A program made the translations under genes and the position numbers. The notes beneath the pieces were generated by a model, which saw only the letters and a list, made by a program, of their open reading frames with translations, did no database searches and was not told the DNA's origin. 32,089 nt of DNA from Luteitalea sp. Its GTDB lineage: Bacteria > Acidobacteriota > Vicinamibacteria > Vicinamibacterales > Vicinamibacteraceae. Every line of letters begins with the position of its first letter. Positions within the stretch are counted from its first letter, which is position 1. The stretch is taken from NCBI GenBank assembly GCA_009377605.1, contig WHTT01000076.1:1-32089 (forward strand), written 5' to 3'. This document shows positions 1 through 30,045 of this stretch, in pieces.

Positions 1-45
1 CGCCGAAGCTTTAGCGAAGGCGGGAGCGCGGAGCGCGAAGGCGTG
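1..45. repeat. REP-like imperfect palindrome at left edge
   Basis: The first 22 bases pair CGCC with GGCG and GCT with AGC, separated by opposing GAA/GAA steps that could form sheared G-A pairs. A second GCG-rich arm (gagcgcgaaggcg) follows directly. This has the look of a repetitive extragenic palindrome sitting just upstream of an operon. No second copy was found in the window, so calling it a dispersed repeat is inference. It may continue to the left of the window. Confidence 0.4.
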
Positions 46-83
46 AACGCGCCGTGCACGGGTTTGGCTTTTGGAATAGCAGA

Positions 84-1145
84 GTGTACCGAGATTTCTT
101 CGGCCTATCGGAGCGCCCGTTCGATCTCACGACGAACCCGCGGTTCCTGTTCCTCTCGAGCGGGCACCGCGAAGCCTTGAGCGTCCTGCACTACGGCATG
201 GCGGGCGACAAGGGCATCACGGTGCTCGTTGGTGAGGCCGGAACTGGAAAGACGACGCTCGCTCGCGCGGCCCTGGCCCACTACCAGAGCTCGGAGGTGC
301 TCGGCCTTTACTTGAACAACCCCACGCTGACGCGGCAGGAGTTCTTCGAGTTCGTTGCCCACGGCGTGGGACTCAGTCCGAAGGTGGCTCGGTCCAAGGC
401 CACGTTCCTGCGCGAGCTGGACGCGCTGCTCGGAGAGCGGCGTCGTTCCGGCAAGCTGACGGCGCTGATCGTCGACGAAGCGCAAGCGATACCTACCGAG
501 ATCCTCGAAGAGATTCGCATGCTGGCGAACCTCGAGTCCCCGACGAGCAAGCATTTGTCGATCCTGCTCGCGGGACAACCCGAGCTCGCGACGCGGCTGA
601 ACGAGCCGGCGTTACTTCCGCTCAAACAGCGAGTGGCCTTGCGCACCACGCTGACGCCATTTCGCCTGCTGGAAACCGCCTGCTATCTCGCCATGAGGAT
701 CCGTGTCGCGGGTGGCGACCCAGCCGCGATCTTTTACCGGTCGGCGGTGGAGCGCATTCATCAGGTGTCGAGGGGCGTTCCCCGGACGATCAACGTCGTC
801 TCCGACAACGCGCTGCTGACGGCCTTCGCCCTCAAGGCGAAGCCGGTCTCCACCGACATCATCGCCGAGGTGTGCAGGGATCTCGATGTGAACATGGGCG
901 GCAACGAGCCCGTCGTGGCGGAAGCACAGGCGGGGTCGTCGCAGGAGCCGGGCGCCGTCCCAGGTGGCGAGCGGCGGCAGCTGGCCCCAGACAGGGGGCC
1001 AGGGGATCTGCTCGGCACGCCACGGCCGCCCGCTGCCGTGCATCGACCGGAAGGTAACGACGATCACGCGAGAAAAGAGCCGTCGGCCTCCCGCTCGAAC
1101 GAGACGGCGATGGCGCGACGTGCAGTGATCTTATCTGTCGACTGA
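84..1145 (+). CDS. ExeA/MshM-like AAA ATPase, exosortase (XrtA)-locus type
   Basis: Cytoplasmic P-loop ATPase of the general-secretion ExeA-like family; members near PEP-CTERM/exosortase EPS loci are annotated as putative secretion ATPases. The GTG at 84 gives the family-typical N-terminus MYRDFFGLSERPF; an in-frame GTG at 54 would add ten atypical residues. Walker A GEAGTGKT is at residues 50-57, Walker B LIVDEA at about 128-133, and a sensor-like LAGQPEL follows near residue 160. The AAA core ends around residue 270. The last 80 or so residues are a low-complexity tail rich in Gly, Pro, Glu and Arg with no recognisable domain. The tyrosine kinase starts 8 nt after the stop, so the two are probably co-transcribed. 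Its exact role in EPS export is not established. Length is about 353 aa. Confidence 0.85.
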   Translation: MYRDFFGLSERPFDLTTNPRFLFLSSGHREALSVLHYGMAGDKGITVLVGEAGTGKTTLARAALAHYQSSEVLGLYLNNPTLTRQEFFEFVAHGVGLSPKVARSKATFLRELDALLGERRRSGKLTALIVDEAQAIPTEILEEIRMLANLESPTSKHLSILLAGQPELATRLNEPALLPLKQRVALRTTLTPFRLLETACYLAMRIRVAGGDPAAIFYRSAVERIHQVSRGVPRTINVVSDNALLTAFALKAKPVSTDIIAEVCRDLDVNMGGNEPVVAEAQAGSSQEPGAVPGGERRQLAPDRGPGDLLGTPRPPAAVHRPEGNDDHARKEPSASRSNETAMARRAVILSVD

Positions 1146-1153
1146 GGGTGAAC

Positions 1154-2086
1154 ATGAGCCGGATTGGTGATGCCATACTGCGGGTGAGCGAAGCCGCACG
1201 GGAACGCGGTGAGCCGGTGCCTCCGGACGTGGCCAGAGTGGGGGCCCTCCGACTCATTCAGGAGGATCCCCCCTACGAGTCGCCATGGACGTTCGACGAA
1301 GCGGCTCCTCCCCCCGCATCCATGCGGCCCCTTGTCGCGGTGCCGAAGACGAACCGGCCCACCCCGACGCCGCGTCCTCCCGGGTCGGCGCTGAGCCGCG
1401 ACGAGCCGCCGGCCGTGTTCCGCCGAGTCAACCCGCGGCTCGAAGAGCGGATCATCGTCTCGGGCAAGGTATCGGCTGAAGGTGTCGAGCAGTATCGCCA
1501 ATTGGCCGGAACGCTGCACCAGGCACAGCTCGATCGCGGGCTGCGTGTGGTCATGGTCACCAGCGCCGTGCTGGCCGAGGGCAAGTCGCTGACGTCGACG
1601 AATCTGGCCCTCACGTTGAGCGAGTCCTACCGACGTAGGGTCTTGCTCATCGATGCCGATCTCCGCCGCCCCACGCTTCACGACATTTTTCAAGTCGGAA
1701 ACGGGAGCGGACTCTCTGACGGCCTCCGGCGGGAAAGCCCAGCCACCTTCCCCACGCTCGCGATCTCGGATGCCCTGGCGCTTCTGCCGGCAGGAGCGCC
1801 CGACCCCGACCCGATGGCCGGCCTGACCTCCGCGCGGATGCGGCAATTGATCGACGAAGCCCGAAGCAAGTTCGACTGGGTCGTGATCGACACGCCGCCT
1901 GTGACGATGATGCCGGACGCAAACCTGCTGACCGCGACCGCCGACGGTGTCGTGCTGGTGGTGGCGGCAGCCCACGCGCCGTTCGACATCGTCAGGCAGG
2001 CTGCGAAGACAATCGGGCGCAAGAAGATTCTCGGCGTCGTCCTCAACCGCGCTGAGGCCGAGTCGATCCCGTATTCATCGTACTGA
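1154..2086 (+). CDS. CpsD/CapB-family tyrosine kinase (BY-kinase), EPS locus type
   Basis: Bacterial tyrosine autokinase that normally works with a membrane co-polymerase to control EPS chain length; here it is a stand-alone cytoplasmic kinase with no transmembrane segment. ATG at 1154 is preferred because GAGGG lies six bases upstream; an in-frame GTG at 1148 adds two residues. Residues 1-95 are a Pro-rich variable region. The kinase core has the Walker A equivalent SAVLAEGKS (137-145), Walker A' VLLIDADLR (163-171) and Walker B VVIDTP (243-248). The usual P-G before EGK is L-A here. The C-terminal tyrosine cluster is very short: only Tyr307 and Tyr310, the last residue. The partner co-polymerase is not in the window. 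Length 310 aa. Confidence 0.88.
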   Translation: MSRIGDAILRVSEAARERGEPVPPDVARVGALRLIQEDPPYESPWTFDEAAPPPASMRPLVAVPKTNRPTPTPRPPGSALSRDEPPAVFRRVNPRLEERIIVSGKVSAEGVEQYRQLAGTLHQAQLDRGLRVVMVTSAVLAEGKSLTSTNLALTLSESYRRRVLLIDADLRRPTLHDIFQVGNGSGLSDGLRRESPATFPTLAISDALALLPAGAPDPDPMAGLTSARMRQLIDEARSKFDWVVIDTPPVTMMPDANLLTATADGVVLVVAAAHAPFDIVRQAAKTIGRKKILGVVLNRAEAESIPYSSY

Positions 2087-2097
2087 ATACAAATTCA

Positions 2098-2123
2098 GCC
2101 GCGATGCGGACTTTAATCGCGGC
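2098..2123 (+). terminator. Hairpin downstream of the kinase gene
   Basis: GCCGCGAT (2098-2105) and ATCGCGGC (2116-2123) form a perfect 8-bp stem with a 10-nt loop, starting 12 nt after the kinase stop codon. No T-run follows, so it is either a rho-independent-like terminator lacking the U tract, an mRNA 3' stabiliser, or a protein-binding dyad upstream of the sigma-54 site at 2182. Confidence 0.45.
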
Positions 2124-2181: not shown

Positions 2182-2197
2182 TGGCGTTCGATTTGCA
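2182..2197 (+). promoter_or_regulatory. Sigma-54 (-24/-12) promoter
   Basis: TGGCGTTCGATTTGCA matches the RpoN consensus TGGCACG-N4-TTGCW at all eight core TGGC/TTGC positions, with the invariant GG and GC dinucleotides at the required spacing. Predicted transcription start is about 2208, 38 nt before the ATG at 2246. It lies in the 159-bp gap between the kinase and the next gene, in the correct orientation. Confidence 0.72.
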
Positions 2198-2245: not shown

Positions 2246-2665
2246 ATGTCAGCGCACCGGACCGATCGAAGGCACGAGGTGTACGACGAGGACAGCTTTC
2301 GGCACTTCCTGGCGATAGAGCGAAGGCGCGCCGAGCGCTCGGGACGATCACTGCTCTTGCTGCTGGTGGATATCACGCCCGACAGCGAGGGGGACGGCTC
2401 GATTGATGCCGCAGAGGCCGACGCGTTGTTCGCTGCCCTCGCGACCTGCGTTCGAGAGATCGAGGTCATCGGCTGGTATCGGACTGGCCGATCAGCGGGT
2501 GCCGTGCTGACGCAAGGCGCCAACGGACCGCCGCCTGACGTCTCGCGTCGGATCGGCGAGCGCGTCGCTGGCGCGCTGAGCCAACGCTTGCCCGCGCGTG
2601 TGCGGGCGCGCCTCGAAGTGCGTGTGTTGCAACTGCAGACTAGGCCAAAGAACCGCTATGCATGA
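2246..2665 (+). CDS. Small degenerate GGDEF-like domain protein
   Basis: Soluble 139-residue protein with no signal peptide or membrane segment. Residues 17-45 (FRHFLAIERRRAER followed by a hydrophobic strand and VDI) look like the beginning of a GGDEF/nucleotidyl cyclase fold. Where GGDEF would be expected the sequence reads WYRTGRSAGAVL (77-88), so catalytic activity is unlikely. The same fold, with matching ERRRA, GW and VILT-type segments, makes up residues 77-190 of the next gene product, so the two are paralogous. The stop overlaps the start of the sugar transferase by 8 nt (ATGCATGA), implying translational coupling. A regulatory or scaffold role for the transferase is inference. It is the first gene after a sigma-54 promoter. 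Confidence 0.7.
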   Translation: MSAHRTDRRHEVYDEDSFRHFLAIERRRAERSGRSLLLLLVDITPDSEGDGSIDAAEADALFAALATCVREIEVIGWYRTGRSAGAVLTQGANGPPPDVSRRIGERVAGALSQRLPARVRARLEVRVLQLQTRPKNRYA

Positions 2666-3935
2666 CTGGATGACGACGTTCCACTGGAGTGAGGGGACGC
2701 CGATCGCGAGCGTGAGGCCCGTGCGATCACGCGCGCGTTCGCCACGGCGGGCCAACGGTTTGACGGTCGGGCACGCTCGCAACGGCAGCGTGGCCGGAAG
2801 TCTGTCCATTGCGTCGATGGTTGAAAGCCACGCCATCGAGCAGACGATGGGGCGACCGACTGCGGGGGCCGAGGCGCGCACCACCCAGCGCTTCCTCAAC
2901 GAGCGGCTGTTCAAGAGCGCGCTGATTCGCGAGCGGCGGCGAGCGGATCGCCTCGACGAGCTGTTCGCCCTCATCACGATCAAGGTGGATCCGCCCCTTC
3001 TCCCGGCGGTGCGTGCTGCGGTGGCGGCAACCGCCAGTGACATCGACATGACGGGATGGATGGAGCAGGGCACTACTGTCGGTGTGATCCTGACCGAGCT
3101 CACCAGGCCTGGCGATGCCGACGTTCGCCAGTTCGAAGCGTGCGTGCTGCACGAGCTGATGCGCCGTCTCGACACCGCAGCCATCGAGCGGCTCGAGATA
3201 CGGTGTTACGTGCATCGCGGCCCCGTGGCCGGAAGCGCCCCTGAGCTCCCCGAGGGTGACCCCCTACTCGACGAGCTCCGCGCCATGCACACGCGCCTGC
3301 CGCTTTGGAGCACAGCGAAGCGAACGCTCGACATCATTGGAAGCGCTACGCTCCTCGTGCTGATGTCCCCCATCCTCTTGCTCGCGGCCCTGTTCGTCAA
3401 GCTGACCTCGCCTGGCCCCATCCTCTTCCGGCAGGAGCGCATCGGCTACATGGCCACGCCGTTCACGATGCTCAAGTTTCGCACCATGCAGGTGAACAAC
3501 GATCCCGCGCTACATCGGCAGTACGTGACGGACTTCATCAAGTTCGCCAACCACGCGAGGGCGAGCAACGACGCGGCACCGTTCAAGATCGACAACGACC
3601 CACGAACAACGGCGATTGGCCGCCTGCTCCGCAGGACCAGCATGGACGAGCTGCCACAGCTCTGGAACGTCCTGAGGGGTGACATGTCGCTCGTGGGCCC
3701 TCGTCCACCGATCGCCTACGAGCTCGAGCACTATCAGCCCTGGCACTGGAGGCGCGTGCTCGAGGCCAAGCCAGGCCTCACGGGCTTGTGGCAGGTCACC
3801 GGTCGAAGCCGTACGACGTTCGACGAGATGGTCCGCCTCGACCTCCGCTACGCCAGGGCCAAGTCCCTCTGGTTGGACCTCAAGATTCTCCTTGCGACGC
3901 CACGGGCCGTTATTACGGGCCGCGGCGCGCGTTGA
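2658..3935 (+). CDS. Initiating undecaprenyl-phosphate sugar phosphotransferase with N-terminal GGDEF-like domain
   Basis: Membrane-associated polyprenyl-phosphate hexose-1-phosphate transferase (bacterial sugar transferase family, WcaJ/PglC-like C-terminal catalytic part) that starts repeat-unit assembly. ATG at 2658 overlaps the previous stop; an in-frame ATG at 2817 (residue 54) is possible, and neither has a strong ribosome site. Residues 1-76 are basic and variable. Residues 77-190 are a degenerate cyclase-like domain paralogous to the preceding protein. The catalytic part (about 221-425) begins with KRTLDIIGS and a membrane hairpin (about 226-250), then KFRTM (273-277), a DNDPRTT-type segment, SMDELPQLWNVL, SLVGPRP and the PGLTGLWQ motif. 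Unlike WcaJ it lacks four N-terminal transmembrane helices; the cyclase-like domain takes their place. The aminotransferase starts 21 nt later. Confidence 0.87.
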   Translation: MHDWMTTFHWSEGTPIASVRPVRSRARSPRRANGLTVGHARNGSVAGSLSIASMVESHAIEQTMGRPTAGAEARTTQRFLNERLFKSALIRERRRADRLDELFALITIKVDPPLLPAVRAAVAATASDIDMTGWMEQGTTVGVILTELTRPGDADVRQFEACVLHELMRRLDTAAIERLEIRCYVHRGPVAGSAPELPEGDPLLDELRAMHTRLPLWSTAKRTLDIIGSATLLVLMSPILLLAALFVKLTSPGPILFRQERIGYMATPFTMLKFRTMQVNNDPALHRQYVTDFIKFANHARASNDAAPFKIDNDPRTTAIGRLLRRTSMDELPQLWNVLRGDMSLVGPRPPIAYELEHYQPWHWRRVLEAKPGLTGLWQVTGRSRTTFDEMVRLDLRYARAKSLWLDLKILLATPRAVITGRGAR

Positions 3936-3956
3936 TGCCCAGACGAGCCACACACT

Positions 3957-5144
3957 ATGACTCCACCCATTCCATTCTTGGATCTGATCACGCCCCACCG
4001 GGAGCTCGAGGAGGAGCTCGTCGCGGCCTTTCGTGACGCCGTCCGATCGGCCGCCTTCATCGGCGGACCGGAAGTCGAGGCGTTCGAGCGAGAGTTTGCC
4101 GCCTACTGCGGCACGAAGTATTGCGTCGGTGTCGCCAGTGGCACCGACGCCGTGCGGTTTGCCTTGATGGCAGCTGGCGTCGGCCTTGGTGACGCGGTCG
4201 TCACGGTGTCGCACACCTTCATCGCCACGGTCGAAGCCATCAGCCAGGCGGGCGCGGACACGGAGCTCGTCGACATCGACGAGCGCACGTACTGCATGAG
4301 TCCTGACAGGCTGCTGGAATACCTCGAAGCCTGCCAAAAGGATCAACATACCGGCCGGCCGCTTGGCCAGCGCTCAGGGAGGCCAATCAGGGCGGTGGTT
4401 CCCGTGCACCTCTACGGCCAGGTGGCGGAGATGGACTCAATCCTGGACATCGCCAGCCACTACGACCTCTTCGTCGTTGAAGACGCGTGCCAGGCGCAGG
4501 GTGCCGAGTACTACTCCGCGGAAGGCGGCTGGCGGCGCGCCGGCTCCTTCGGCAAGGCGGGCGCGTTCAGCTTCTATCCCGGCAAGAACCTCGGAGCCTG
4601 CGGTGAAGCGGGCGCCGTGACCACCGACGACGAACAGGTGGCGCAGAAGATCCGGATGCTGCGTGAGCACGGGCAGGCACAGAAGTACTACCACGACCTC
4701 GAGGGCTACAACGGCCGGCTGGATGCGATTCAGGCGGCATTCCTCAGGATCAAGCTTCGCCACCTGGATCGCTGGAACGAGCAACGAAAGTCGGCCGCGG
4801 CTCGTTACGCCGAGCTGCTGTCCGGCGCACCTGACATCACGCCCCCGTTCGAGCCGGAGACGAGCAGAGCCGTCTATCATCTCTACGTCGTCAGAACGAA
4901 GGACCGAGATGCGCTCGCCGCGCACCTGAAGGCGGAGAGCATCTCTGCCGGATTGCACTATCCGCTGCCGGTTCATCTGCAGAAGTGCTACCGCGATTGG
5001 GGCTATGACGTCGGCGACCTGCCGGTTACCGAGCGCGCCGCCTCCGAGGTTCTGTCCCTTCCAATGTTCCCCGGGCTGACGAAAGCGCATCAAGAACGGG
5101 TTGCGAGTGGGATCGAGACATTCGCCAGCGTCATCCCTGGTTGA
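3957..5144 (+). CDS. DegT/DnrJ/EryC1/StrS sugar aminotransferase (WbpE/FdtB-like)
   Basis: PLP-dependent aminotransferase that adds an amino group to a nucleotide-linked keto-sugar. Visible family features are IPFLDL near the N-terminus, SGTDA (61-65, phosphate binding), EDACQAQGA (175-183, cofactor ring contact) and the PLP lysine in FYPGKNLGACGE (Lys210). The C-terminal HYPLPVHLQ and SLPMFP segments are typical of 3-amino-sugar aminotransferases. Length 395 aa matches the family. It could pair with the dehydrogenase and acetyltransferase encoded at 22023-23575, or supply another amino sugar. The exact substrate cannot be read from sequence. Confidence 0.88.
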   Translation: MTPPIPFLDLITPHRELEEELVAAFRDAVRSAAFIGGPEVEAFEREFAAYCGTKYCVGVASGTDAVRFALMAAGVGLGDAVVTVSHTFIATVEAISQAGADTELVDIDERTYCMSPDRLLEYLEACQKDQHTGRPLGQRSGRPIRAVVPVHLYGQVAEMDSILDIASHYDLFVVEDACQAQGAEYYSAEGGWRRAGSFGKAGAFSFYPGKNLGACGEAGAVTTDDEQVAQKIRMLREHGQAQKYYHDLEGYNGRLDAIQAAFLRIKLRHLDRWNEQRKSAAARYAELLSGAPDITPPFEPETSRAVYHLYVVRTKDRDALAAHLKAESISAGLHYPLPVHLQKCYRDWGYDVGDLPVTERAASEVLSLPMFPGLTKAHQERVASGIETFASVIPG

Positions 5145-5210
5145 TGTAAACCCTGTCCTGACAAGTAACGTGCTCTCATCAACCGGACAGCTCCCAGAAG
5201 GACCCATGCC

Positions 5211-6641
5211 GTGAGCGTTGGCGGCGTCGCATTCACGGTCATCGCCGGGTTGCTCCTCGTCGTGCTGCCGCGGCGGCTCGCGGTGATTCCGCTGCTGCTT
5301 GCCGCCGCATACACGACCCGACTGCCTGTTGTCGAGCTCGGACCCGCCAGCCTGAGTGCGCTCCGCATCCTTGTGGTAGTCGGCATCGTGCGTGTTCTCG
5401 TGCGCGGCGAACGGGTCGCCAATGGCGTGAACGTGATCGACGCACTGCTGTTCGCCTGGGCGCTGCTCCTGGTCGGCTCGAGTGCGTTTCATACGCCAGA
5501 CGCGTGGACGGTTCGCTCGGGCATGGTGTTGGGTGAAGTGGGCGTGTACGTCCTCTGCCGGATCTTCATCCAGGACGCTGAAGACGTTCGCCGGATATTC
5601 GCAGTCTTGTGCGTGGTGCTCTTGCCGCTCGCCATCCTGATGTTGCTCGAGAAGCACACAGCGCACAACTTCTTCTCGATCATGGGAGGAACTGGCGAGA
5701 TCAACATCCGCGAAGGACACGTCCGGGCATATGGGCCGTTCGCGCATTCGATCTTGGCAGGGACGGTCGGTGCGACCTGCATGGCAATGGCCGTCGCCAT
5801 CTGGAGAATGCATCGCGTAAGCGCGCTCCTTGGACTGGCTGCCGGGGCGGGTATCGTCTTCGCCAGCACGTCGAGCGGGCCGATCATGATGGTCGCCTTT
5901 ACCTCGTTCGCGTTGCTGCTCTGGAAGCTGCGGAGCGTGCTGAGTCTGGTTCGCTGGGCGACGCTTGCCGGCATCGTCGCGCTCGACATCGTGATGGACG
6001 CCCCGGTGTACTTCCTCATGGGGCGCATCGATATTACCGGCGGCAGCGCTGGCTGGCACCGCGCGCAGCTGATCCGCTCGTCGCTCGAGCACCTGAGCGA
6101 ATGGTGGGCCGTCGGTACGGATTACACGAGGCATTGGATGGCTACCGGCGTACCGGCGAATTCGATCCACACGGACATCACCAATCACTTCCTGGCGATG
6201 GGGGTGCTGGGCGGTCTGCCGCTGTTGATCCTGTTCGCGCTCATGCTGGGTGTCGCGTTTCGAGCGGTGGGACGAGCAGTGCGGGACAATGAGCGCCGAT
6301 CACCCACGCAGGCCTTTCTCGTCTGGACCCTGGGAGCGATGCTGTTCGGGCAGGTGATGAACTTCTGGTCGATCTCGCTGTTCGACCAGTCGATCTCGTT
6401 CTTCTATCTGATCGTCGCGGCGATTACCGCGATCCAGCACCCGGCCGTGTCGGTGGCCAAGGCGGGCGTGTCTGCCCGTACTCGGCGTCGAAAGCGCAAA
6501 GGCCGGGGCGTTCGCGTGCCGGCAGCAGTAGGAATGAACGATGAGCGACGAGACTTTCACGATAACAGTATCGGTCAACCACGAGGAGGTGCTTCAGCAG
6601 AACCTCCTCTTGTCTCCTGGCCTGCTGAATGGAGGACGTAA
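5211..6641 (+). CDS. O-antigen polymerase/ligase-like membrane protein (Wzy-like)
   Basis: Polytopic inner-membrane protein with about ten or more hydrophobic segments between residues 1 and 405, including the family-like RAYGPFAHSILAGT segment in its middle. It would polymerise lipid-linked repeat units in the periplasm. GTG at 5211 is supported by AGAAGGA at 5196-5202; the ATG at 5206 is out of frame and stops after two codons. After the last membrane helix there is a strongly basic stretch (RTRRRKRKGRG) and a hydrophilic tail that overlaps the next gene by 101 nt, which is unusually long. Wzy proteins are poorly conserved, so the assignment rests on topology, length (476 aa) and operon position. 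Confidence 0.8.
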   Translation: MSVGGVAFTVIAGLLLVVLPRRLAVIPLLLAAAYTTRLPVVELGPASLSALRILVVVGIVRVLVRGERVANGVNVIDALLFAWALLLVGSSAFHTPDAWTVRSGMVLGEVGVYVLCRIFIQDAEDVRRIFAVLCVVLLPLAILMLLEKHTAHNFFSIMGGTGEINIREGHVRAYGPFAHSILAGTVGATCMAMAVAIWRMHRVSALLGLAAGAGIVFASTSSGPIMMVAFTSFALLLWKLRSVLSLVRWATLAGIVALDIVMDAPVYFLMGRIDITGGSAGWHRAQLIRSSLEHLSEWWAVGTDYTRHWMATGVPANSIHTDITNHFLAMGVLGGLPLLILFALMLGVAFRAVGRAVRDNERRSPTQAFLVWTLGAMLFGQVMNFWSISLFDQSISFFYLIVAAITAIQHPAVSVAKAGVSARTRRRKRKGRGVRVPAAVGMNDERRDFHDNSIGQPRGGASAEPPLVSWPAEWRT

Positions 6642-7317
6642 TCAGCTGGTCATCAAACGGCGCTTTCCCTCGGCGTCCCTCGCTTACAACAGCGCGATCG
6701 AGGAAGCCGAGAACGACATCGTCATCTTCGTTCACCAGGACGTCTATCTGCCGGATACGTGGTTTGCATGCTTGAAGAGTTGTTTGGCATTTCTCGAGGA
6801 GACACAAGTGAGCTGGGGGGTTCTCGGCTGTTTTGGATCCAGGAAAGGCGCCGAAGGCGGGCTCGGACGTGTGTACACGAGCGGCTTGGGATGGCACGGA
6901 CGACTCGTTACCCGGCCGGAGCCGGTCGAGACACTCGACGAAATCCTGCTCGTCATCCGTAAGTCGTCGGGCCTGCGTTTCGATCCTCGCCTTCCCCACT
7001 TTCATTTGTACGGGACCGACATCTGCATGAAGGCGAGGGAGCGAGGCCTCGCGAACTATGCGTTTCAGGGGCTTTGTGTCCACAACACGAACCAGCTACT
7101 GAGCCTGCCGAGAGAGTTCTACACGTGCTATCGCTACATTCGAAGCAAGTGGTCCCGGTACCTGCCAATTTATGCCTCCTGTATGAAGATCTCATTCCTG
7201 AACGGAGAGCTCTGCCGGAAGTGGATCGTCGAGGCTGGACACCAGCTGCTTGGGACGCGACGCCAAGCGAAAACCAGGGTCGAGGATCCGCGAGTGTTCT
7301 GCTATGAGCGCCACTGA
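6541..7317 (+). CDS. Glycosyltransferase, GT2-like (Glyco_tranf_2_5 type)
   Basis: Cytoplasmic GT-A-type transferase. Diagnostic segments are SASLAYNSAIEEAENDIVIFVHQDVYLP (residues about 42-70, shown here joined from two stretches: the YN...A segment and the HQDVYLP nucleotide/metal-binding segment), WGVLGCFGS, and HFHLYGTDICMKARERG toward the C-terminus. ATG at 6541 is preceded by TAGGAA with seven-base spacing. The start lies inside the 3' end of the polymerase gene in another frame. Length 258 aa. Donor and acceptor are unknown. Confidence 0.82.
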   Translation: MSDETFTITVSVNHEEVLQQNLLLSPGLLNGGRNQLVIKRRFPSASLAYNSAIEEAENDIVIFVHQDVYLPDTWFACLKSCLAFLEETQVSWGVLGCFGSRKGAEGGLGRVYTSGLGWHGRLVTRPEPVETLDEILLVIRKSSGLRFDPRLPHFHLYGTDICMKARERGLANYAFQGLCVHNTNQLLSLPREFYTCYRYIRSKWSRYLPIYASCMKISFLNGELCRKWIVEAGHQLLGTRRQAKTRVEDPRVFCYERH

Positions 7318-7345
7318 CGCGGACGCGAAGAGGGAGTCAGACCTG

Positions 7346-8221
7346 ATGGCAACGCGGAGATACATCATTGTCTCACCTGTACGAGACGAGGCGCCGCATA
7401 TCGACAAAACGATTGAAGCCGTGAGATCGCAGACTCTCCTGCCTGCGCGCTGGATCGTCGTCGATGACGGCTCGACCGATGGAACGGGCGAGATCCTAGA
7501 TAAACGTGCATCGCAGGCGAGCTGGATGCGCGTTGTCCATCGGCCGAACCGGGGCCGCCGGGTCAACGGCTCGGGTGTCATGGAGGCGTTCTACGCCGGC
7601 TACGCGTTGCTGGACCACGACGGGTGGGACTACCTCGTCAAGCTCGACGGCGATCTGTCGTTCGCACCGGACTACTTCGAGCGCTGTCTGGCGATGTTCG
7701 CGGCAGACCCGAGGCTCGGAATCGGCGGCGGGACCGTGTGTCAGCTCGAGCAGGGAAACGAGAAGGTGGACTCCAAGAGCGACCCGACATTTCATGTGCG
7801 GGGCGCTACGAAGATCTATCGACGTGAATGCTGGGATCAGATTGCACCGTTGGTGCCGGCGCCTGGTTGGGACACCGTCGACGAGGTGAAGGCCAACATG
7901 TTGGGTTGGGCCACGCGCACGTTCCCAGAGTTGCGCCTGATTCAGCACAAGGAGACAGGGGCGGCAGATGGCGCATGGCGGAATGCATTCAAGAACGGTC
8001 GAGCAAACTACGTAACGGGATATGACCCCATGTTCATGCTGGCGAAGTGTGTCAAGCGCGGGTTGACGAAGCCGCTCTTCGTGGAGGGCCTCGCCATGGC
8101 GCTCGGCTTCTGCTCGGGCTACGTCGCAAGGTCGCCACGCGTCCCTGATCCAGGCGTGATCGACTACTTGCGGCGGCAGCAACGCCGGCGCCTGTTGCTC
8201 CGCGCGAGTATTTATGGATAA
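7346..8221 (+). CDS. Glycosyltransferase family 2
   Basis: GT-A fold transferase with the family N-terminus YIIVSPVRDEAPHI, the nucleotide-binding VVDDGSTDGT (about residues 36-45) and the DxD-like metal site KLDGDL. ATG at 7346 is preferred because AGGGAG lies at 7331-7336; an in-frame ATG at 7304 would add 14 residues and overlap the preceding stop. No transmembrane segment is evident apart from a weak hydrophobic patch near the C-terminus. Its last 8 nt (ATGGATAA) overlap the next start. Length 291 aa. Sugar specificity cannot be inferred. Confidence 0.87.
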   Translation: MATRRYIIVSPVRDEAPHIDKTIEAVRSQTLLPARWIVVDDGSTDGTGEILDKRASQASWMRVVHRPNRGRRVNGSGVMEAFYAGYALLDHDGWDYLVKLDGDLSFAPDYFERCLAMFAADPRLGIGGGTVCQLEQGNEKVDSKSDPTFHVRGATKIYRRECWDQIAPLVPAPGWDTVDEVKANMLGWATRTFPELRLIQHKETGAADGAWRNAFKNGRANYVTGYDPMFMLAKCVKRGLTKPLFVEGLAMALGFCSGYVARSPRVPDPGVIDYLRRQQRRRLLLRASIYG

Positions 8222-9230
8222 ACGGGGCCCGATGTCTGAGGTTGATCTTTCGGTTGTGATCGTGAATTGGAACTCGGCCGAGTACGTACTGGCGTGCGTT
8301 CGATCCATCGTGGCCGGGACCACGGCGACCGCCTACGAGATCATCGTGGTCGACAACGCATCCTTCGATGGTTGTGAGCAGCAGCTGGCCCAGGAGTTTC
8401 CCGGCGTGTTGTTCCTTCAAAGCAGTAAGAACCTCGGTTTCGGAGCCGCCAACAACCTTGGCGTCGCACGATCACGCGGCGGTGTCCTGCTCTTCCTGAA
8501 TCCTGACACGGAGGTGCGCAAGGGTGCGATCGATCGGCTGTACGCAGGGATCGCTAAGCTCTCAGATGCGGGCGTGGTTGGTTGCCGGCTATTGAATACG
8601 GATGGGACGCTGCAGACGAGCTGCGTCCAGGCATTGCCGACCGTCTTGAACCAGATCCTGAACGCAGACCTGCTGCGCCGCTGCGCCCCCCGAGCCTGGC
8701 TGTGGGGTACTCGTGCCTTGTTCAGCACCTCGACGGCTCCGGTCGAGGTCGAGGCGGTCTCGGGCGCATGCATGATGGTGCGGCGGCAGGTGTTCGAGCG
8801 TGTCGGCGGGTTCAGTCCCGCATTCTTCCTGTACGGGGAAGACCTGGACTTCTGCGCGAGGGTTGGCCGCGCCGGTTTCAGAAACGCCTACGTTGGTAAC
8901 TGCGAAGTGGTTCATCACGGCGGCGGTAGCGCTCGCAACGTGCACAGTACGTTCTCGGTGGTCATGATGTGCGAGTCCGTGGCGCTGCTACTTCGAAGGC
9001 TGCGTGGACCGCTGGCGAGCACCAGCTATCGTGTGGCGCTGATAATCTCCGCCTGCCTCCGTCTCACGATCCTTGCGGTCACCTCGCCAGCCTGGCTGAT
9101 GGCAAGCGGCGCGACGTCCTGGAGCAATGCGTGTCGGAAATGGCTGGCGATTCTCCGTTGGGGGCTGGGATTGCACCGCCCGGCCCTACCCCACCTCCAA
9201 CGGAGCCCGGACGTGGGAGGAGCCCGTTAA
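8214..9230 (+). CDS. Glycosyltransferase family 2, rhamnosyltransferase (WbbL)-like
   Basis: GT2 enzyme resembling the WbbL/RfbF rhamnosyltransferase group: LSVVIVNWNSAEYV near the N-terminus, VVDNASFDG, GFGAANNLG, LFLNPDTEV (metal-binding region), the acceptor loop GACMMVRRQVFERVGGF, and FFLYGEDLDFCARV. The C-terminal 80 residues contain two hydrophobic stretches that may attach it to the membrane. The start at 8214 overlaps the upstream stop; an in-frame ATG at 8232 is an equally good start and removes six residues. The stop is directly followed by the ATG of the amidotransferase. Length 338 aa. Confidence 0.87.
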   Translation: MDKRGPMSEVDLSVVIVNWNSAEYVLACVRSIVAGTTATAYEIIVVDNASFDGCEQQLAQEFPGVLFLQSSKNLGFGAANNLGVARSRGGVLLFLNPDTEVRKGAIDRLYAGIAKLSDAGVVGCRLLNTDGTLQTSCVQALPTVLNQILNADLLRRCAPRAWLWGTRALFSTSTAPVEVEAVSGACMMVRRQVFERVGGFSPAFFLYGEDLDFCARVGRAGFRNAYVGNCEVVHHGGGSARNVHSTFSVVMMCESVALLLRRLRGPLASTSYRVALIISACLRLTILAVTSPAWLMASGATSWSNACRKWLAILRWGLGLHRPALPHLQRSPDVGGAR

Positions 9231-11210
9231 ATGTGTGGGATCGCCGGCATCCTCAACTTCGACTGGGCGGCGCCGGTCAATGCTCGCTTGTTGCGAGATA
9301 TGACCGACGCAATTGCCCATCGGGGACCCGACGGCCGTGGGGAGTACGTTTCGGGCTGCGTCGGCCTCGGACATCGGCGCTTGAGCATCATCGACTTGAG
9401 CCGCGGCGGCCAGCCCATGTGCAATGAGGACGCCAGTGTCTGGGTGACCTACAACGGCGAGATCTACAACTTCGCCGACGTGCGCTCCGACCTGGAGTCG
9501 CGTGGCCACATGTTCAAGTCGGCCAGCGATACGGAGGTCATCGTCCATGCCTATGAGGAGTGGGGCGAGCAGGCAGTCCAGCGGCTGCGCGGCATGTTCG
9601 CGTTTGCTCTATGGGACGACCGCAAACAGCAGTTGTTGCTCGCACGTGATCGTGTCGGTATCAAGCCTCTCTACTACACGAACACGGGCAAGGCATTCCT
9701 GTTTGCGTCCGAGCTGAAGTCGCTGCTGGTCCATCCGGCCGTGTCTCGTCGGCTGAGCGCACGGGCAATCGATCGGTTTCTCACGTATTACTACCTGCCC
9801 GGCGCGGAGACCGCGTTCGCAGACATCTACAAGCTGGAACCGGGACATTGCTTGATAGTGAAGGACGGGCGCGTTCGCAAGGAGCAGTACTGGGATCTCT
9901 GCTTTGATGAGCCGCACCGCTGGCGGAGCTTCTCAGAGGCGGTGGAGGCCCTTCAGGACTTGTTGCGCCAGACCGTCAAAGACCACATGACCAGCGACGT
10001 TCCGGTAGGTGTGCTGCTGAGCGGCGGCGTCGACTCGACGGGCGTCCTGCGCTATGCCGCCGAAGAAGCTGGCGATGCCGTCCACTCCTTCACGGTAGGG
10101 TTCGCCGGCGAAGGATTCGCTGACGAACGCCCGTACGCGCGGCTGGCCGCGCAGCGCTACGGAACGCGTCATTACGACATCCCGCTGACGCCGTATGAGT
10201 TCCTGGAGTTCCTCCCGCAGTATGTGTGGCACATGGAGGAGCCCGTCTGTGAGCCTCCAGCCGTCGCGCTCTACTACGTTTCCCGGCTGGCACGCGAGAC
10301 CGGCGTCAAGGTGCTGCTGTCGGGCGAGGGCGGAGACGAGGCGTTCGCCGGCTACCAGAACTATCGCAATCTGCTCTTCCTCGAGCGGGCCAAGTCTGCC
10401 CTCGGCTCGGCCAAGCCGCTCCTTCGCTCGACGCTCCACGCGTTTGCGCGGCTCGGCTGGAATCGCGTCGAACCCTACAGCAAGCTGATTGACCTGCCTC
10501 TCTCGAGCTACTATCTGAGCCGAACTGCCACACCCGAGACGCCATTCAATCGACTGAAAAGTGCGCTCTACCGTGCAGAGCTCAACGAGGCGCTGCGAGA
10601 CCGCGAGTCGAACGAGGCGACGCGCGGTCTGTTCGAGCGGGTCCGAGAGCAGCCGCTGTTGGACCGGATGCTCTACGTCGACACGAAGACGTGGTTGCCA
10701 GACGACTTGCTCGTCAAGGCAGACAAGATGACGATGGCCACGTCGGTGGAGTTGCGGGTGCCCTTGCTCGACTTCCGCGTGCTCGAGTTCGCCGCGTCGC
10801 TGCCACAGAGCTTCAAGCTACGCGGATGGTCCGGCAAGCGCATCTTAAAGGCCGCACTGAAGGGCTCCGTTCCACGAGAGATCCTCGAGCGGCCGAAATC
10901 TGGGTTCCCGGTGCCCTATGAGCGATGGCTGCGAGCCGACCTGAAGGAGTTCGTCGGCGACACCCTGCTGACGCCAACGGCGGCGCTGACGAAGTACTTC
11001 CGAACTAGCGCCCTTGACACCATCGTCGAAGGATTCTTTCGCGATGGCAAAGGTGGCAAGGAAGTCTTCTCCCTCCTCGTGCTGGAGCTGTGGCTTCAAC
11101 AGTTCGGGACTGCAGAGACACAGCACGGCAGTCCGATGCTGGCGAAGCCGCCGAGCGCACGGCAGGAAGAGTACCTCGAAGCTTTCTTGGTCAATCGAAC
11201 CGGAACGTAG
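9231..11210 (+). CDS. asnB: Asparagine synthase (glutamine-hydrolysing)-like amidotransferase
   Basis: Two-domain amidotransferase. The N-terminal class II glutaminase starts with MCGIAG, so Cys2 becomes the catalytic nucleophile, and includes RGPDG, RLSIID and YNGEIYN. The C-terminal ATP-pyrophosphatase domain carries SGGVDS at residues 264-269 and GEGGDEAFAGY further on. Family members either make asparagine or, in EPS loci, are thought to amidate sugar carboxyl groups; the latter would fit a polymer containing uronates, but this is inference. GGAGG just upstream and a start immediately after the previous stop support translational coupling. Length 659 aa, within the family range. A 216-bp gap with no recognised site follows. 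Confidence 0.9.
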   Translation: MCGIAGILNFDWAAPVNARLLRDMTDAIAHRGPDGRGEYVSGCVGLGHRRLSIIDLSRGGQPMCNEDASVWVTYNGEIYNFADVRSDLESRGHMFKSASDTEVIVHAYEEWGEQAVQRLRGMFAFALWDDRKQQLLLARDRVGIKPLYYTNTGKAFLFASELKSLLVHPAVSRRLSARAIDRFLTYYYLPGAETAFADIYKLEPGHCLIVKDGRVRKEQYWDLCFDEPHRWRSFSEAVEALQDLLRQTVKDHMTSDVPVGVLLSGGVDSTGVLRYAAEEAGDAVHSFTVGFAGEGFADERPYARLAAQRYGTRHYDIPLTPYEFLEFLPQYVWHMEEPVCEPPAVALYYVSRLARETGVKVLLSGEGGDEAFAGYQNYRNLLFLERAKSALGSAKPLLRSTLHAFARLGWNRVEPYSKLIDLPLSSYYLSRTATPETPFNRLKSALYRAELNEALRDRESNEATRGLFERVREQPLLDRMLYVDTKTWLPDDLLVKADKMTMATSVELRVPLLDFRVLEFAASLPQSFKLRGWSGKRILKAALKGSVPREILERPKSGFPVPYERWLRADLKEFVGDTLLTPTAALTKYFRTSALDTIVEGFFRDGKGGKEVFSLLVLELWLQQFGTAETQHGSPMLAKPPSARQEEYLEAFLVNRTGT

Positions 11211-11426
11211 CGCTACGGCATGACGAGAGGAATCTGCGCGCGCTCATTCTCGCCCGGCAGCAAGGCGAGGTCCGAGACCTTGAGCGAAGCTCTCGACGGG
11301 TCCTTGGCGAAAGCGCGCGATTTAGCGTTTCCGTCGATTCACCGTATCGCCCACAGGAGAGGATCGCGTCGTCTGGCATAAGAAGTCTCGGGATGTGACA
11401 TAAGTGTTCTCCAGTGATGCTACGAA

Positions 11427-12641
11427 ATGACCTCCTTGCCGGCTCGAGTACTGTTGCTCGTCGAGAACAATCCGTATCCCATGGACTTCAGGGTGCGTCG
11501 TGAAGCGCACACGCTTCGCGATGCCGGCTGCCAAGTGACCGTGATCGCCCCAAGAGCTGCGACGCAGGCATGGACGGAAGACGTTGCTGGCGTCCGCGTG
11601 TATCGCTTTCCTGCCCCGCCTGGCGGGAGTGGGCTGTTGAGCTATGCGCTCGAATTCGGATACGCCACGCTCGCCATCCTCCTTTTGACGGTGTGCGTGT
11701 GGCTCCGCAGGGGCGTGGACGTCATCCACGCAGCGAATCCACCCGATACGCTGTTCGTGATTGCTGCGATCTTCAAGGTGCTCGGCAAGCGATTTGTGTT
11801 CGACCAGCACGACCTTGCCCCAGAGACGTATCTGTCTCGATTCGGGCAGCCTCGTCAGAACCTCGTCTACAGAGCATTGGGCCTGCTCGAACGCTGTTCG
11901 TATGCGGTAGCGGATGTGGTCATCGCGACCAACGAGTCGTATAAGCTGCTGGCGCTGACGCGAGGGCGTAAGCGCGCCGACACCGTTTTCGTTGTGAGAA
12001 ATGGGCCGCCTCTCTCGTATCAGATGGCAGAGCCTGACCCGTGCGTGACGCAGCGGGCGACGTATCTCATCGGCTACGTCGGGACCATTGGCCCACAGGA
12101 CGGTGTGGACTACTGGATTCGGGCAGTTCACGAGCTCGTGTTCAGATTCGAGCGGCGCGACTTTTTGGCCATCGTCATTGGCGATGGCGATGCACTTGCG
12201 AGTGTGCAGGCCCTAACACGCCAGCTCGAGGTCGACCCTTACGTGTGGTTCACCGGGCGGCTCTCGGAACTCGAGGTTCGCAAGTGTCTGTCCGCGGTTC
12301 ACGTCTGTGTGCAGCCCGATCCACTGAGTCCGTTGAACGATAAGTCGACCATGAACAAGCTCATGGAGTACATGGCACTTGGAAAGCCAACTGTCGCCTT
12401 TGATCTGACCGAGACTCGATATTCGGCGCAGGAGGCGGCCCTGTATGTTCGACCGAATGACGAGGTTGAGTTCGCACGACAGGTGAGCTGGCTCCTGGAC
12501 AATCGTGCTGAGCGGGAAAGGATGGGTATTGTCGGGCAGCGAAGAGTCCGCGAAGGGCTAGCGTGGGAGCACTCGGCGGGGAGCCTTCTTCGAGCGTACA
12601 GCAAGGCCCTGCGTGTTGTTGAGATGGTTCGCTCGAGCTGA
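11427..12641 (+). CDS. Glycosyltransferase family 4 (WbuB-like)
   Basis: GT-B retaining glycosyltransferase. The N-terminal half has VLLLVENNPYPMDFRVRREA, typical of the WbuB-like subgroup, and an internal hydrophobic segment (about residues 71-93) that may dip into the membrane, followed by DVIHAANPPDTLF. The C-terminal nucleotide-sugar domain has GYVGTIGPQDGVDY, VIGDG, and MNKLMEYMALGKPTVAFDL with the expected E-x7-E arrangement near the end (about residues 310-332). Length 404 aa. The start codon has no strong Shine-Dalgarno sequence, but the conserved N-terminus leaves little choice. Confidence 0.88.
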   Translation: MTSLPARVLLLVENNPYPMDFRVRREAHTLRDAGCQVTVIAPRAATQAWTEDVAGVRVYRFPAPPGGSGLLSYALEFGYATLAILLLTVCVWLRRGVDVIHAANPPDTLFVIAAIFKVLGKRFVFDQHDLAPETYLSRFGQPRQNLVYRALGLLERCSYAVADVVIATNESYKLLALTRGRKRADTVFVVRNGPPLSYQMAEPDPCVTQRATYLIGYVGTIGPQDGVDYWIRAVHELVFRFERRDFLAIVIGDGDALASVQALTRQLEVDPYVWFTGRLSELEVRKCLSAVHVCVQPDPLSPLNDKSTMNKLMEYMALGKPTVAFDLTETRYSAQEAALYVRPNDEVEFARQVSWLLDNRAERERMGIVGQRRVREGLAWEHSAGSLLRAYSKALRVVEMVRSS

Positions 12642-12835: not shown

Positions 12836-12851
12836 TGGCGCGTGTTTTGCC
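12836..12851 (+). promoter_or_regulatory. Sigma-54 (-24/-12) promoter
   Basis: TGGCGCGTGTTTTGCC matches TGGCACG-N4-TTGC at 14 of 15 positions (only A5 is G). The GG/GC spacing is exact. Predicted start of transcription is about 12862, giving an 88-nt leader to the ATG at 12950. It drives the beta-helix exoprotein and possibly the two glycosyltransferase genes behind it. Confidence 0.78.
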
Positions 12852-23630: not shown

Positions 23631-26600
23631 TCAAGGCGTTGCCTCGACGAACACCACGTCGACCCAGTAATTGGAGCTATTGAACGTCTGTGTCGGAAAC
23701 GTGCTCGGGCCGTACTGATAGACGCCGTTTCCACCGGACACGCCGTTCGCAAGCGCCTCGAGCGCTTCGCTCCCGGCCCCAGACGAGGCGAAGTATCCGA
23801 CGTCGACGGCATACCGACCATTGGGAGCGTGGTACGACGCCAGGTACACCGTGTTGGCGGTGACCGGCACCGGCGTGTCGAACATCATCTGCTGCCAGCC
23901 GCTACTCGTCTCGTCCGTGAACGTCACGGTCGCCAGCGGAACACCGCTCGCGCTCCACAGGGTTCCGATGTGGACGCCGGTATTCAGCGGCCCCTTGTAG
24001 AAGCGAATGCCCGTGATGACACCGTCGACGGTGGTCCGGAACTTGACGCCGAGCTCCACGGCGTCCGTGTCGGGGTCTGAAGCCGTTCCCGGAACGGTGG
24101 ACTCCGGCCAGATCGTGCACGGGCAGTCCAGCGACGGCGGCGCAGTCGTCGTGAAGCTCGCCGGCGTGGACGGCGCCGAGCTCGGGTTGTTCGCGGCATC
24201 CACGGAGGTCACACGGAAGTAGTACGTGACGCCGCTCGAGAGGCCCGTCAGCGTCACCTCGTGCGATGAGGTCAGGCCCGGTGTGGATGCCGACAAGCTC
24301 AGATCGCCTGGCGACGTGCCGTAGTCGACTCGTGATGTGGCCAGTTCGTTGGTGGCCCAGGTGATCGTCGCGGTGGTATTCGTCGGGCTGGCGGCAATCC
24401 CGCTAATCACCGGCGGCGTGCTATCCGTTCCGTAGCTGGCCTGATAGTTCCCCTGCAGCGCAGCGAACATCGCATACGCGACGCCCTTGATCGTCTCGAC
24501 GCGATAGGTCACCGGCGACCCGTTCCGCGACAGCCCGGTGAGGGACGCCGTACCGAACGTGATCGGCAGCATTGCCTCGATACCGTTTGCACCGCTGCCC
24601 ACGCTGACCGAGAAGCTGAGCGTGCCGCCACTCCAATTGAGGTCCCCAAACGAGGATTCGTTGCGGCCGTCGAGCCAGGTGAGCAACTGCTCCGCCGAGA
24701 TGATTGGCACCGAGCGAGCCAGCGCGGAGGCCACGATTGCGTCCGAGCCGGTGTGCTGCACCGTGTCGGTGTGCATGTTGGTAACGAAGAAGCCGTAGTA
24801 GCCTTGGGGCCCAATGGCTCGATCGAGCAGCGTGTCGATGGTGAACGGCCAGGACTGGTCCGACTCGTCGGTGAGCTGCGTCGCCGCCTGGTACACGTCC
24901 ACCACCGCCCCGTTGGCGCTGGCGAACCGCATTGGCATGCCCGAGCCGGTCATGAACCCCGGGCGATCCTGCACCCAGGACGCAGGCCAGTAGTAATAGT
25001 TCGTGTCGAGCCGTATGCCGTGGTCGAGCGCGACCTGCGGCTGCGTGTCGTAGTCGCTGAACGCGATACAGTGCGTCCGGTTCGTCGTTGGCGCGGGGAG
25101 GCTCGGAAATAGCTGCGAGAACTGTGCGATGTCGTTCGTGTAGTTCGACTGCAGCGACTGAGGCGTGTAGTCGCTGCACCCTGTCGTGATGTGCACCGCA
25201 ATCTCGAACCCGTCAGCCACATAGCTCGCCGCCTGCGCGTTGCTGATGGGCGTGTGCGGGTAGATGTACGACGTGCCCCGCACGCACTCCCAGCGGTCCA
25301 GGTTGCAGCCCGCAGGGCTGTTGTTCTTGTAGATATCGAATCGGCCTGCGGTGCCGTTGTTGGCATGGTCGTCGCCCGTCATCACCACGGCCGCCTTTTC
25401 GCCGCGCGGGAAGTACCAGAACCGCGGCAGCGGCTTCCGGCCGATGTTCATGTGGTTGATCAAGTTGGCCAGCAAGCGCTGCTGCTCATCCGCCTGAGGG
25501 ATGGCGATCTTGTCGAAATCCACCCAATCGGGCTCGGCGCCGCCGAAGTAGAGGTCGTCCGATCGAATGGGCGGAAATCCATCACGCTCCTGGCCGGACC
25601 AGGCCGGGTTGCCCTGACGCGTGTAGATGATCGACTTCGCCAGATCGTAGGTGAAGGCCGCAGCCTCACCGCCGCTCCCACCCGCACTGTTGAGCGTCAC
25701 AGCCGGATGGACGGTCGGCGTGCTCGCATCGGCGTAGAGCGTGGCAATCGTCGACGCACCGCTGACCGTATAGCGGTCCGCCACGCCGTGATATTGCATC
25801 GATGCCGCCGTGATGCCGGCGCCGGGAGGAACATTCGTGTCCACGGCAAGGTAGCCTTCCGGCAGGGTTCCGCCGGAGTCGCTCAGGCCGAGCAGCCCGG
25901 CCAGGCTCTTGGTTGGCCGCATCGCGATGAGATTCCCACCACCGTCCACCCAGTTGGTGAGCATCGTCACCTGGGCGCTAGTGAGCGGCATCTCACCGAG
26001 GATCACCACGTCGTGGGCAGCGAGCACGGTGGCCGACACCTGAGAGATGTCCATGGCCGTGAAAGCGTTGAGGCCTTCGGCGCGGAGAATCTCTGCGTAG
26101 TACCGGCTGAAGGGATTGCCGCTCCACCCAATCGCGAGGATTGGACCGCCCGGGCCTTCAGTCGGCGGTGGCGGCGGTGCGGCGGCCGTCGTGAAGCTCC
26201 ACGTGAAGTCGGCCGCCATGGGATTCCCGGCAAGATCCTGCACACCGCCAACCCCGCCCACGACGCGGGCCGTATACGTGGTCTCGTACGCGAGCGGCGC
26301 GCTCGGTGTCAGCGTTGCCGTGCGAGCGCCTGCCGAATAGCTCACCGTTGCCGGCACGAGGACGTTCGATGCGTTGCGCAGCTCGAAGGTCGACTCGTTG
26401 ACGGACGCCGCGTCCACGTTCTCGCTGAACGTTGCGGTGACCGCGGTCGTGATTGCGACCCCACTGGCGCCACTCGATGGACTGACGTCCGTCACCGCCG
26501 GCGGCGTCGTATCCGGCGCCAGCGAGGTCACGAAGACAACGTCAACCCAGTAGTTCGCGCTCTGAAAGGTCTGATTCGGGAAGCCGCTCGCGCCGTACTT

Positions 26601-29753: not shown

Positions 29754-29849
29754 GTCCGTCCTCATTCGTCGCGGCGTCCGGCCCGTAATACTTCGACTTG
29801 CACCCAGACAGGAACAGGGAGGGGGCGTCTGGAAGACGCAGTGCTATCG

Positions 29850-29865
29850 AGCAAAGTCCTTGCCA
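29850..29865 (-). promoter_or_regulatory. Sigma-54 (-24/-12) promoter
   Basis: On the minus strand TGGCAAGGACTTTGCT matches TGGCACG-N4-TTGCW at every position except one (A for C at position 6). Predicted transcription start is about 29839, an 85-nt leader before the ATG at 29753. It lies in the gap between the insertion sequence and the giant exported protein gene. Confidence 0.78.
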
Positions 29866-29979: not shown

Positions 29980-30010
29980 AGGTCTGCGTCGGAAGGTTTT
30001 ACTGAGCGAC

Positions 30011-30045
30011 CGCGGGGCCTAACTGCCTGTGGCTAAAGCCCCGCG
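30011..30045. terminator. Hairpin spanning the transposase stop codon
   Basis: CGCGGGGC (30011-30018) and GCCCCGCG (30038-30045) form a perfect 8-bp GC stem with a 19-nt loop that contains the transposase stop codon (30033-30035) and most of the left terminal repeat. It may terminate transcription leaving the element. There is no T-run. Confidence 0.45.
30018..30032. repeat. Left terminal inverted repeat of the IS
   Basis: CCTAACTGCCTGTGG, directly adjoining the transposase stop codon; perfect inverted match to 31495-31509. Confidence 0.75.

Follow-up and report, generated by a model that had tools for sequence, protein, structure and literature searches.

The question raised by this locus is whether the DNA between a tyrosine autokinase gene and a small gene at position 2246 carries a working RpoN-dependent promoter, which genes it would serve, and which enhancer-binding protein would activate it. 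The window, i.e., the whole analyzed stretch of 32,089 bp, is the entire contig C76 of a 6.79-Mb genome (G000) represented by 382 contigs.

The sigma-54 box upstream of gene 2246 and its conservation

The part of the window surrounding the box is organized as follows:

54–1145, plus strand: XrtA/PEP-CTERM-type ATPase (TIGR03015, 220 bits, below the cut-off of 324.5; PF13401)
1163–2086, plus strand: tyrosine autokinase (TIGR01007, 128 bits, over the cut-off of 108; TIGR03018, 135 bits, below 230.65)
2109–2118, plus strand: GACTTTAATC, candidate site for activator binding, 63 bp upstream of the box, shared with G006, G004, G095, and the activator-gene promoters
2182–2197, plus strand: sigma-54 −24/−12 box TGGCGTTCGATTTGCA, exact TGGC-N7-TTGC[AT], conserved
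2246–2665, plus strand: 139-aa protein, GGDEF-like but degenerate, whose gene directly follows the putative promoter (AlphaFold model, PDB match)
2658–3935, plus strand: initiating phosphoglycosyl transferase (PF02397, 215 bits)

The GG and GC elements of TGGCGTTCGATTTGCA are 10 nt apart, which corresponds to the spacing of a −24/−12 promoter, and the box is situated within the 159 bp separating the kinase stop (2086) from the ATG at 2246. Both the exact spacing and the length of the gap were confirmed on the sequence as described in the first-pass annotation, and the RpoN-type promoter proposed there is in agreement with the presence of rpoN in the genome (PF04552, 220 bits, contig C18). According to the spacing rule, transcription is predicted to start near position 2208, giving a predicted leader of 38 nt. 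The window contained three exact TGGC-N7-TTGC[AT] matches on both strands versus 0.41 expected from shuffles, and a further 400 kb from elsewhere in the genome had five, both strands again counted. It should be noted that sequences with no more than one mismatch to TGGC-N7-TTGCA numbered 12 in the window versus 6.7 expected, and consequently the box taken alone is weak evidence. No Rfam family reached the gathering score in the window.

Conservation of the box was evaluated in a sample of seven genomes of the family and in a wider search covering 193 genomes from the class. The pair formed by the small gene and the transferase gene was found in five of the seven family genomes (G000, G006, G001, G004, and G005); in G003, the contig ends at the corresponding position. 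In the class, the small gene was detected in 10 of the 193 genomes, half of these 10 lying outside the family, and the box was present in five of the 10. When only the gaps with the kinase upstream were compared (eight, including the window; in G069, another reading frame lies in between), the exact TGGC-N7-TTGC[AT] sequence occurred at the equivalent place in five, namely, the window, G006 (TGGCGTTGGATTTGCA), G001 (TGGCCTTCCGATTGCT), G004 (TGGCGTTCCGTTTGCT), and G095 (TGGCGCATGCCTTGCT), the last belonging to another family of the same taxonomic order. The gaps of G005, L076, and G069 were without it. The G005 gap before the small gene is 43 bp long and contains no box; none was found before the small gene in G039, G068, G069, and G008, all outside the family, and three further relatives (L076–L078) had no good box at that place. 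After sister genomes had been merged, the box was present in three of six lineages, one of them from another family (P of about 1 × 10−6 for at least three of six, with a background of 12 exact boxes in 531,520 strand-bases that includes the real boxes). In the alignment of the window with G006, 15 of the 16 box positions were identical. The expectation that the box would be kept in orthologous loci was thus borne out, and it is this conservation at the equivalent place in relatives that raises the box above chance.

Under one alternative, the box is fortuitous and the small gene is reached by read-through from the kinase gene or served by a sigma-70-family promoter. One-mismatch boxes are indeed common in the window, and no terminator-like site was found in the kinase–2246 gap; nevertheless, the retention of the box in three lineages and its near identity between the window and G006, together with the failure to find a sigma-70-like site in the same gap, make this alternative improbable. 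From the sequence data, the sigma-54 promoter upstream of 2246 is very probably real.

Assembly genes downstream and export genes upstream

The first-pass annotation placed two genes, a sugar transferase gene and a degenerate GGDEF-like gene, under the promoter. Both identifications were upheld: the transferase belongs to PF02397, and the small protein has a GGDEF-like fold from which the signature is missing. The 2246 protein had no match over the cut-off in Pfam or NCBIfam, and PelD_GGDEF was weakly matched by one of five of its relatives. Its AlphaFold model (six sequences, pLDDT 78.9) had as its best PDB match the diguanylate cyclase 6khu (E-value = 1.3 × 10−5, TM = 0.55); some IS200-type transposases also scored, more weakly than diguanylate cyclase domains. 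According to this model, the protein folds like a GGDEF domain. The GG(D/E)EF active-site signature was absent from the aligned rows, the stretch assigned to it by eye in the window being WYRTGRSAGAVL. The 2246 protein has a paralogue in the N-terminal domain of the transferase (approximately 2892–3206; 31% identity); a degenerate GGDEF-like domain is thus common to the first two genes. At L077 and L078, a domain of this kind is located within a longer frame.

The restriction of the unit to two genes was not upheld, as genes on the same strand continue to 12641. The following genes, on the grounds of strand and spacing, form the rest of the likely sigma-54 unit (3957–12641, plus strand):

3957–5144, plus strand: aminotransferase
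5211–6641, plus strand: protein without a family match
6541–7317, 7250–8221, and 8214–9230, plus strand: glycosyltransferases
9231–11210, plus strand: amidotransferase
11427–12641, plus strand: glycosyltransferase

No sigma-70-like promoter was found on the plus strand of the unit up to 12641. Co-transcription of 2246–12641 is likely, judging from strand and spacing only.

Other features were observed further along the window. Box TGGCGCGTGTTTTGCC (12836–12851) lies before the gene of a beta-helix-like secreted protein, the likely start of which is at 12950 and not at 12641; among the seven family genomes, no relative of this protein was found outside its own genome. A strong sigma-54-like box, TGGCAAGGACTTTGCT (29850–29865, minus strand), precedes the gene of a 2044-aa secreted-type protein (23631–29765), and an inverted one-mismatch PrsR-like site occupies positions 29987–30003, 121 bp upstream of that box (equal or better sites in 13 of 1500 random stretches). 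The relatives of the 2044-aa protein in the seven family genomes were limited to partial matches of 39% identity, one in its own genome and one in G006. Near the other contig end, a transposase gene (PF05598, PF01609) is located at 30033–31418 (minus strand).

Separate switching of the polysaccharide assembly genes and of the export genes preceding them had also been proposed. In G006, the chain-length, ATPase, kinase, small, and transferase genes follow one another in this order on the same strand, whereas in the assembly containing the window the chain-length gene is on a different contig, C41. Window positions 1–55 recur exactly on C41 after the chain-length gene, which indicates that the contig ends fall in a repeat and that assembly has split the export unit. 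The chain-length gene has a sigma-54 box of its own, conserved in both genomes of the genus (TGGCGGCAACGTTGCA in G000, C41; TGGCGGAAACGTTGCA in G006, C94). Since the export and assembly units both have sigma-54 boxes, separate switching is unsupported, and the claim is doubtful.

These observations also bear on the possibility that the box at 2182–2197 is only an internal promoter and that export and assembly genes form one long transcript started at the chain-length box. Such a transcript would be consistent with the conserved box before the chain-length gene and with the same-strand order in G006; the 185-bp gap that follows the chain-length gene in G006, and the location of this gene on another contig in the assembly of the window, speak against it, and it is considered quite unlikely.

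Candidate operator and candidate activator

The reading preferred here, with a probability of roughly 0.55 for the explanation as a whole, is that of a working sigma-54 promoter activated through positions 2109–2118 by a protein whose gene lies in a further polysaccharide locus of G000:

G000, contig C57, 31510–32598: receiver-less sigma-54 activator, 362 aa (PF00158, 221 bits)

RNA polymerase with RpoN would wait at 2182–2197, an enhancer-binding protein on GACTTTAATC would open the promoter by DNA looping, and the polysaccharide assembly genes, starting with those for the degenerate GGDEF-like protein and the initiating sugar transferase, would make up the transcript. The C57 protein is the most likely candidate for the activator, and we infer its binding to 2109–2118.

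The activator gene heads the second polysaccharide locus of G000, the counterpart of which in G006 is on C2. PF00158 starts at residue 15 of the 362, and the profile matches of the protein include no receiver-domain family. Downstream of the activator gene come ATPase, export, chain-length, kinase, and EpsB_2 genes, the ATPase gene beginning a few bases after it (TIGR03027 polysaccharide export below the cut-off; TIGR03007 chain-length just below it; EpsB_2, 451 bits, over the cut-off of 393). The box of the activator gene is TGGCGACTTTTTTGCA in G000 and TGGCGACCTTTTTGCA in G006, and in both genomes GACTTTAGTC is present 118 bp upstream of it. Since the promoter of the activator thus has the same site as the window and a sigma-54 box, one activator would drive both itself and the two loci. 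G006, G001, G004, and G005 all retain the activator (76–91% identity), and, with G000 included, its gene adjoins EPS genes in four of five genomes (G000, G006, G001, and G004). No GACTTTA[A/G]TC site was found near the activator gene in G001, G004, and G005; a box scoring at least 16.5 before it was lacking in G001 and G004, and G005 had only a weak one (L110:5128). Self-activation may therefore be confined to the genus of G000 and G006.

The site GACTTTAATC is the only one in the window with no more than one mismatch to GACTTTAGTC. The same sequence occurs in G006, 75 bp before the box, and similar sites were identified in G004 (GCCTTTAGTC, 145 bp before the box) and G095 (GACTTTGGTC, 131 bp), while the small-gene promoter of G001 contained only TAATTTAGTC, with two mismatches. 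Only G004 and G095 are independent observations, since it was a comparison between the window and the activator-gene promoter that drew attention to the motif. The two chain-length promoters differed from GACTTTAGTC by two and three mismatches, and the box-less gaps by two (L076), three (G069), and four (G005). In 341,512 bases of loci, a sample enriched for EPS loci, eight sites with no more than one mismatch were found, six of which had a box no more than 220 bp downstream; these six are four small-gene promoters and two activator-gene promoters. In 400 kb taken from elsewhere in G000, one such site was present, with no box accompanying it. Sites with at most one mismatch were present in 20 of 4000 random 200-bp stretches and in 10 of 355 stretches with a GC content below 0.60, taken from a pool that includes the real sites.

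A second putative operator, CGGA-N7-CTGCC, was obtained by gapped-word enumeration in seven EPS promoters, with exact copies in G001, G004, and both chain-length promoters. Genome-wide, in seven genomes, it was found together with a box at nine places versus eight for the reversed control, and since the control was nearly as frequent, it was rejected as a general element. At one of the nine places (L105, G000:C127:10580–10716), a good box, TGGCAGCCCTTTTGCT, precedes a glycosyltransferase-like gene.

A real RpoN-dependent promoter might also be activated by another enhancer-binding protein, as sigma-54 activators are numerous in the genomes searched, G000 having approximately 25 matches that include the activator domain (E-value < 1 × 10−40). 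The imperfect operator in some relatives fits this alternative, as does G005, which retains the C57-type activator though its small gene has no promoter box. The operator and box shared by the gene of the C57 activator itself, at the head of an EPS locus in the same genome, point away from it, and this alternative appears somewhat unlikely. Assignment of the C57 activator to the 2246 promoter is accordingly graded, on sequence comparison, at about even odds or a little better.

A broader proposal, held tentatively and with slightly less than even confidence, is that of a two-locus EPS regulon, in this Luteitalea-like genus, in which the receiver-less activator would drive its own operon via the dyad GACT-TT-AGTC and the window operon in trans. 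At least part of such a regulon would be kept in G095 and in further family members; it would be distinct from the PrsR regulon, which in the relatives concerns VPDGG-CTERM proteins and is absent from both genomes of the genus. A consensus match would thereby become a testable regulon in which box, operator, and candidate activator are specified, and which would link two polysaccharide loci in a family that has received little study.

PrsK/PrsR and comparison with known systems

PrsK/PrsR, brought forward earlier as a regulator linked with exosortase loci, did not fare well. In the genome of the window, no PrsR (TIGR02915) was found over the cut-off (best match 428.8 versus 502.6); this best match scored higher as NtrX, and the adjoining kinase is not PrsK by the cut-off. 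G006 likewise had no PrsR over the cut-off. In G001, G004, and G005, PrsR over the cut-off is encoded beside an exosortase, about 27–45 kb from the EPS locus. Its neighbors in G001 are PrsK (346.8, over the cut-off of 300), a PrsT-like protein and an XrtC-like exosortase, both below the cut-off, and a VPDSG-CTERM-type protein, over the cut-off.

The PrsR-type operator, CGTCGG-N5-TTTACG, was derived here from four VPDGG-type promoters of relatives. Eight exact copies were found in G001, G004, and G005 together, all eight before a VPDGG-CTERM-type gene (loci L079 (G001), L081 (G004), and L080, L039, and L090 (G005)), and a sigma-54-like box follows these sites at 96–123 bp, weaker in two cases in G004. 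The reversed control occurred once in six genomes. Genome-wide, no copy was detected in the genome of the window or in G095, and the one copy in G006 had no box after it. Within 250 bp of the five small-gene boxes, no PrsR-type operator was found (best, four mismatches), nor was one found in the EPS promoters (best, three to four mismatches). Conversely, GACTTTA[A/G]TC was absent from six VPDGG promoters (best, three mismatches). Neither target considered here, the GGDEF-like protein or the sugar transferase, is an exosortase-sorted (PEP-CTERM-type) protein. The presence of PrsR near the exosortase in three relatives, with PrsK identified in G001, would be the argument for PrsK/PrsR switching the 2246 promoter; since PrsR is absent over the cut-off from the genome and its operator from the EPS promoters, PrsR is very unlikely as the regulator here, to the point of being nearly discounted. 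Two easily confused sigma-54 circuits are thus separated, namely, PrsR for exosortase-sorted proteins and another activator for the polysaccharide.

According to Haft (2006), a PrsR-type promoter consists of motif 1 and the sigma-54 motif 2 before PEP-CTERM genes, and in the sample of that study such motifs occurred only in Proteobacteria (PMC1569441); RpoN dependence of a PEP-CTERM gene was demonstrated by others (PMC9850573). The system proposed here resembles the PrsK/PrsR regulon in that a conserved putative activator site precedes the sigma-54 box and in its link to exosortase/EPS loci, but differs from it in the absence of PrsR, in the operator, and in the target, an EPS assembly operon. 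Association of sigma-54 promoters with EPS and surface genes in general was reported in a survey (PMC3162934), in the main text of which the term Acidobacteri is absent. Among the literature matches listed, which mostly did not include subscription papers, no sigma-54 EPS promoter in Acidobacteria was named. Sigma-54 control of EPS is known elsewhere, and therefore the kind of system is not new.

In Myxococcus xanthus, the NtrC-like EpsI/Nla24, encoded in the eps locus, is required for EPS synthesis (PMC4877007). The C57 sigma-54 activator is similarly encoded inside an EPS locus, and the arrangement proposed here would function in the manner of EpsI; however, c-di-GMP binding and a receiver domain are features of EpsI (PMC4877007), whereas the C57 protein is without a receiver and for this reason was not assigned to EpsI. 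Moreover, the promoter of interest here belongs to a second EPS locus, on a contig other than that of the activator. In Burkholderia cenocepacia, RpoN and BerB act on berA, the product of which regulates the Bep EPS genes (PMC5552954). The arrangement proposed here is similar in placing RpoN and an enhancer-binding protein over EPS genes, and it differs in that the box immediately precedes the EPS operon itself.
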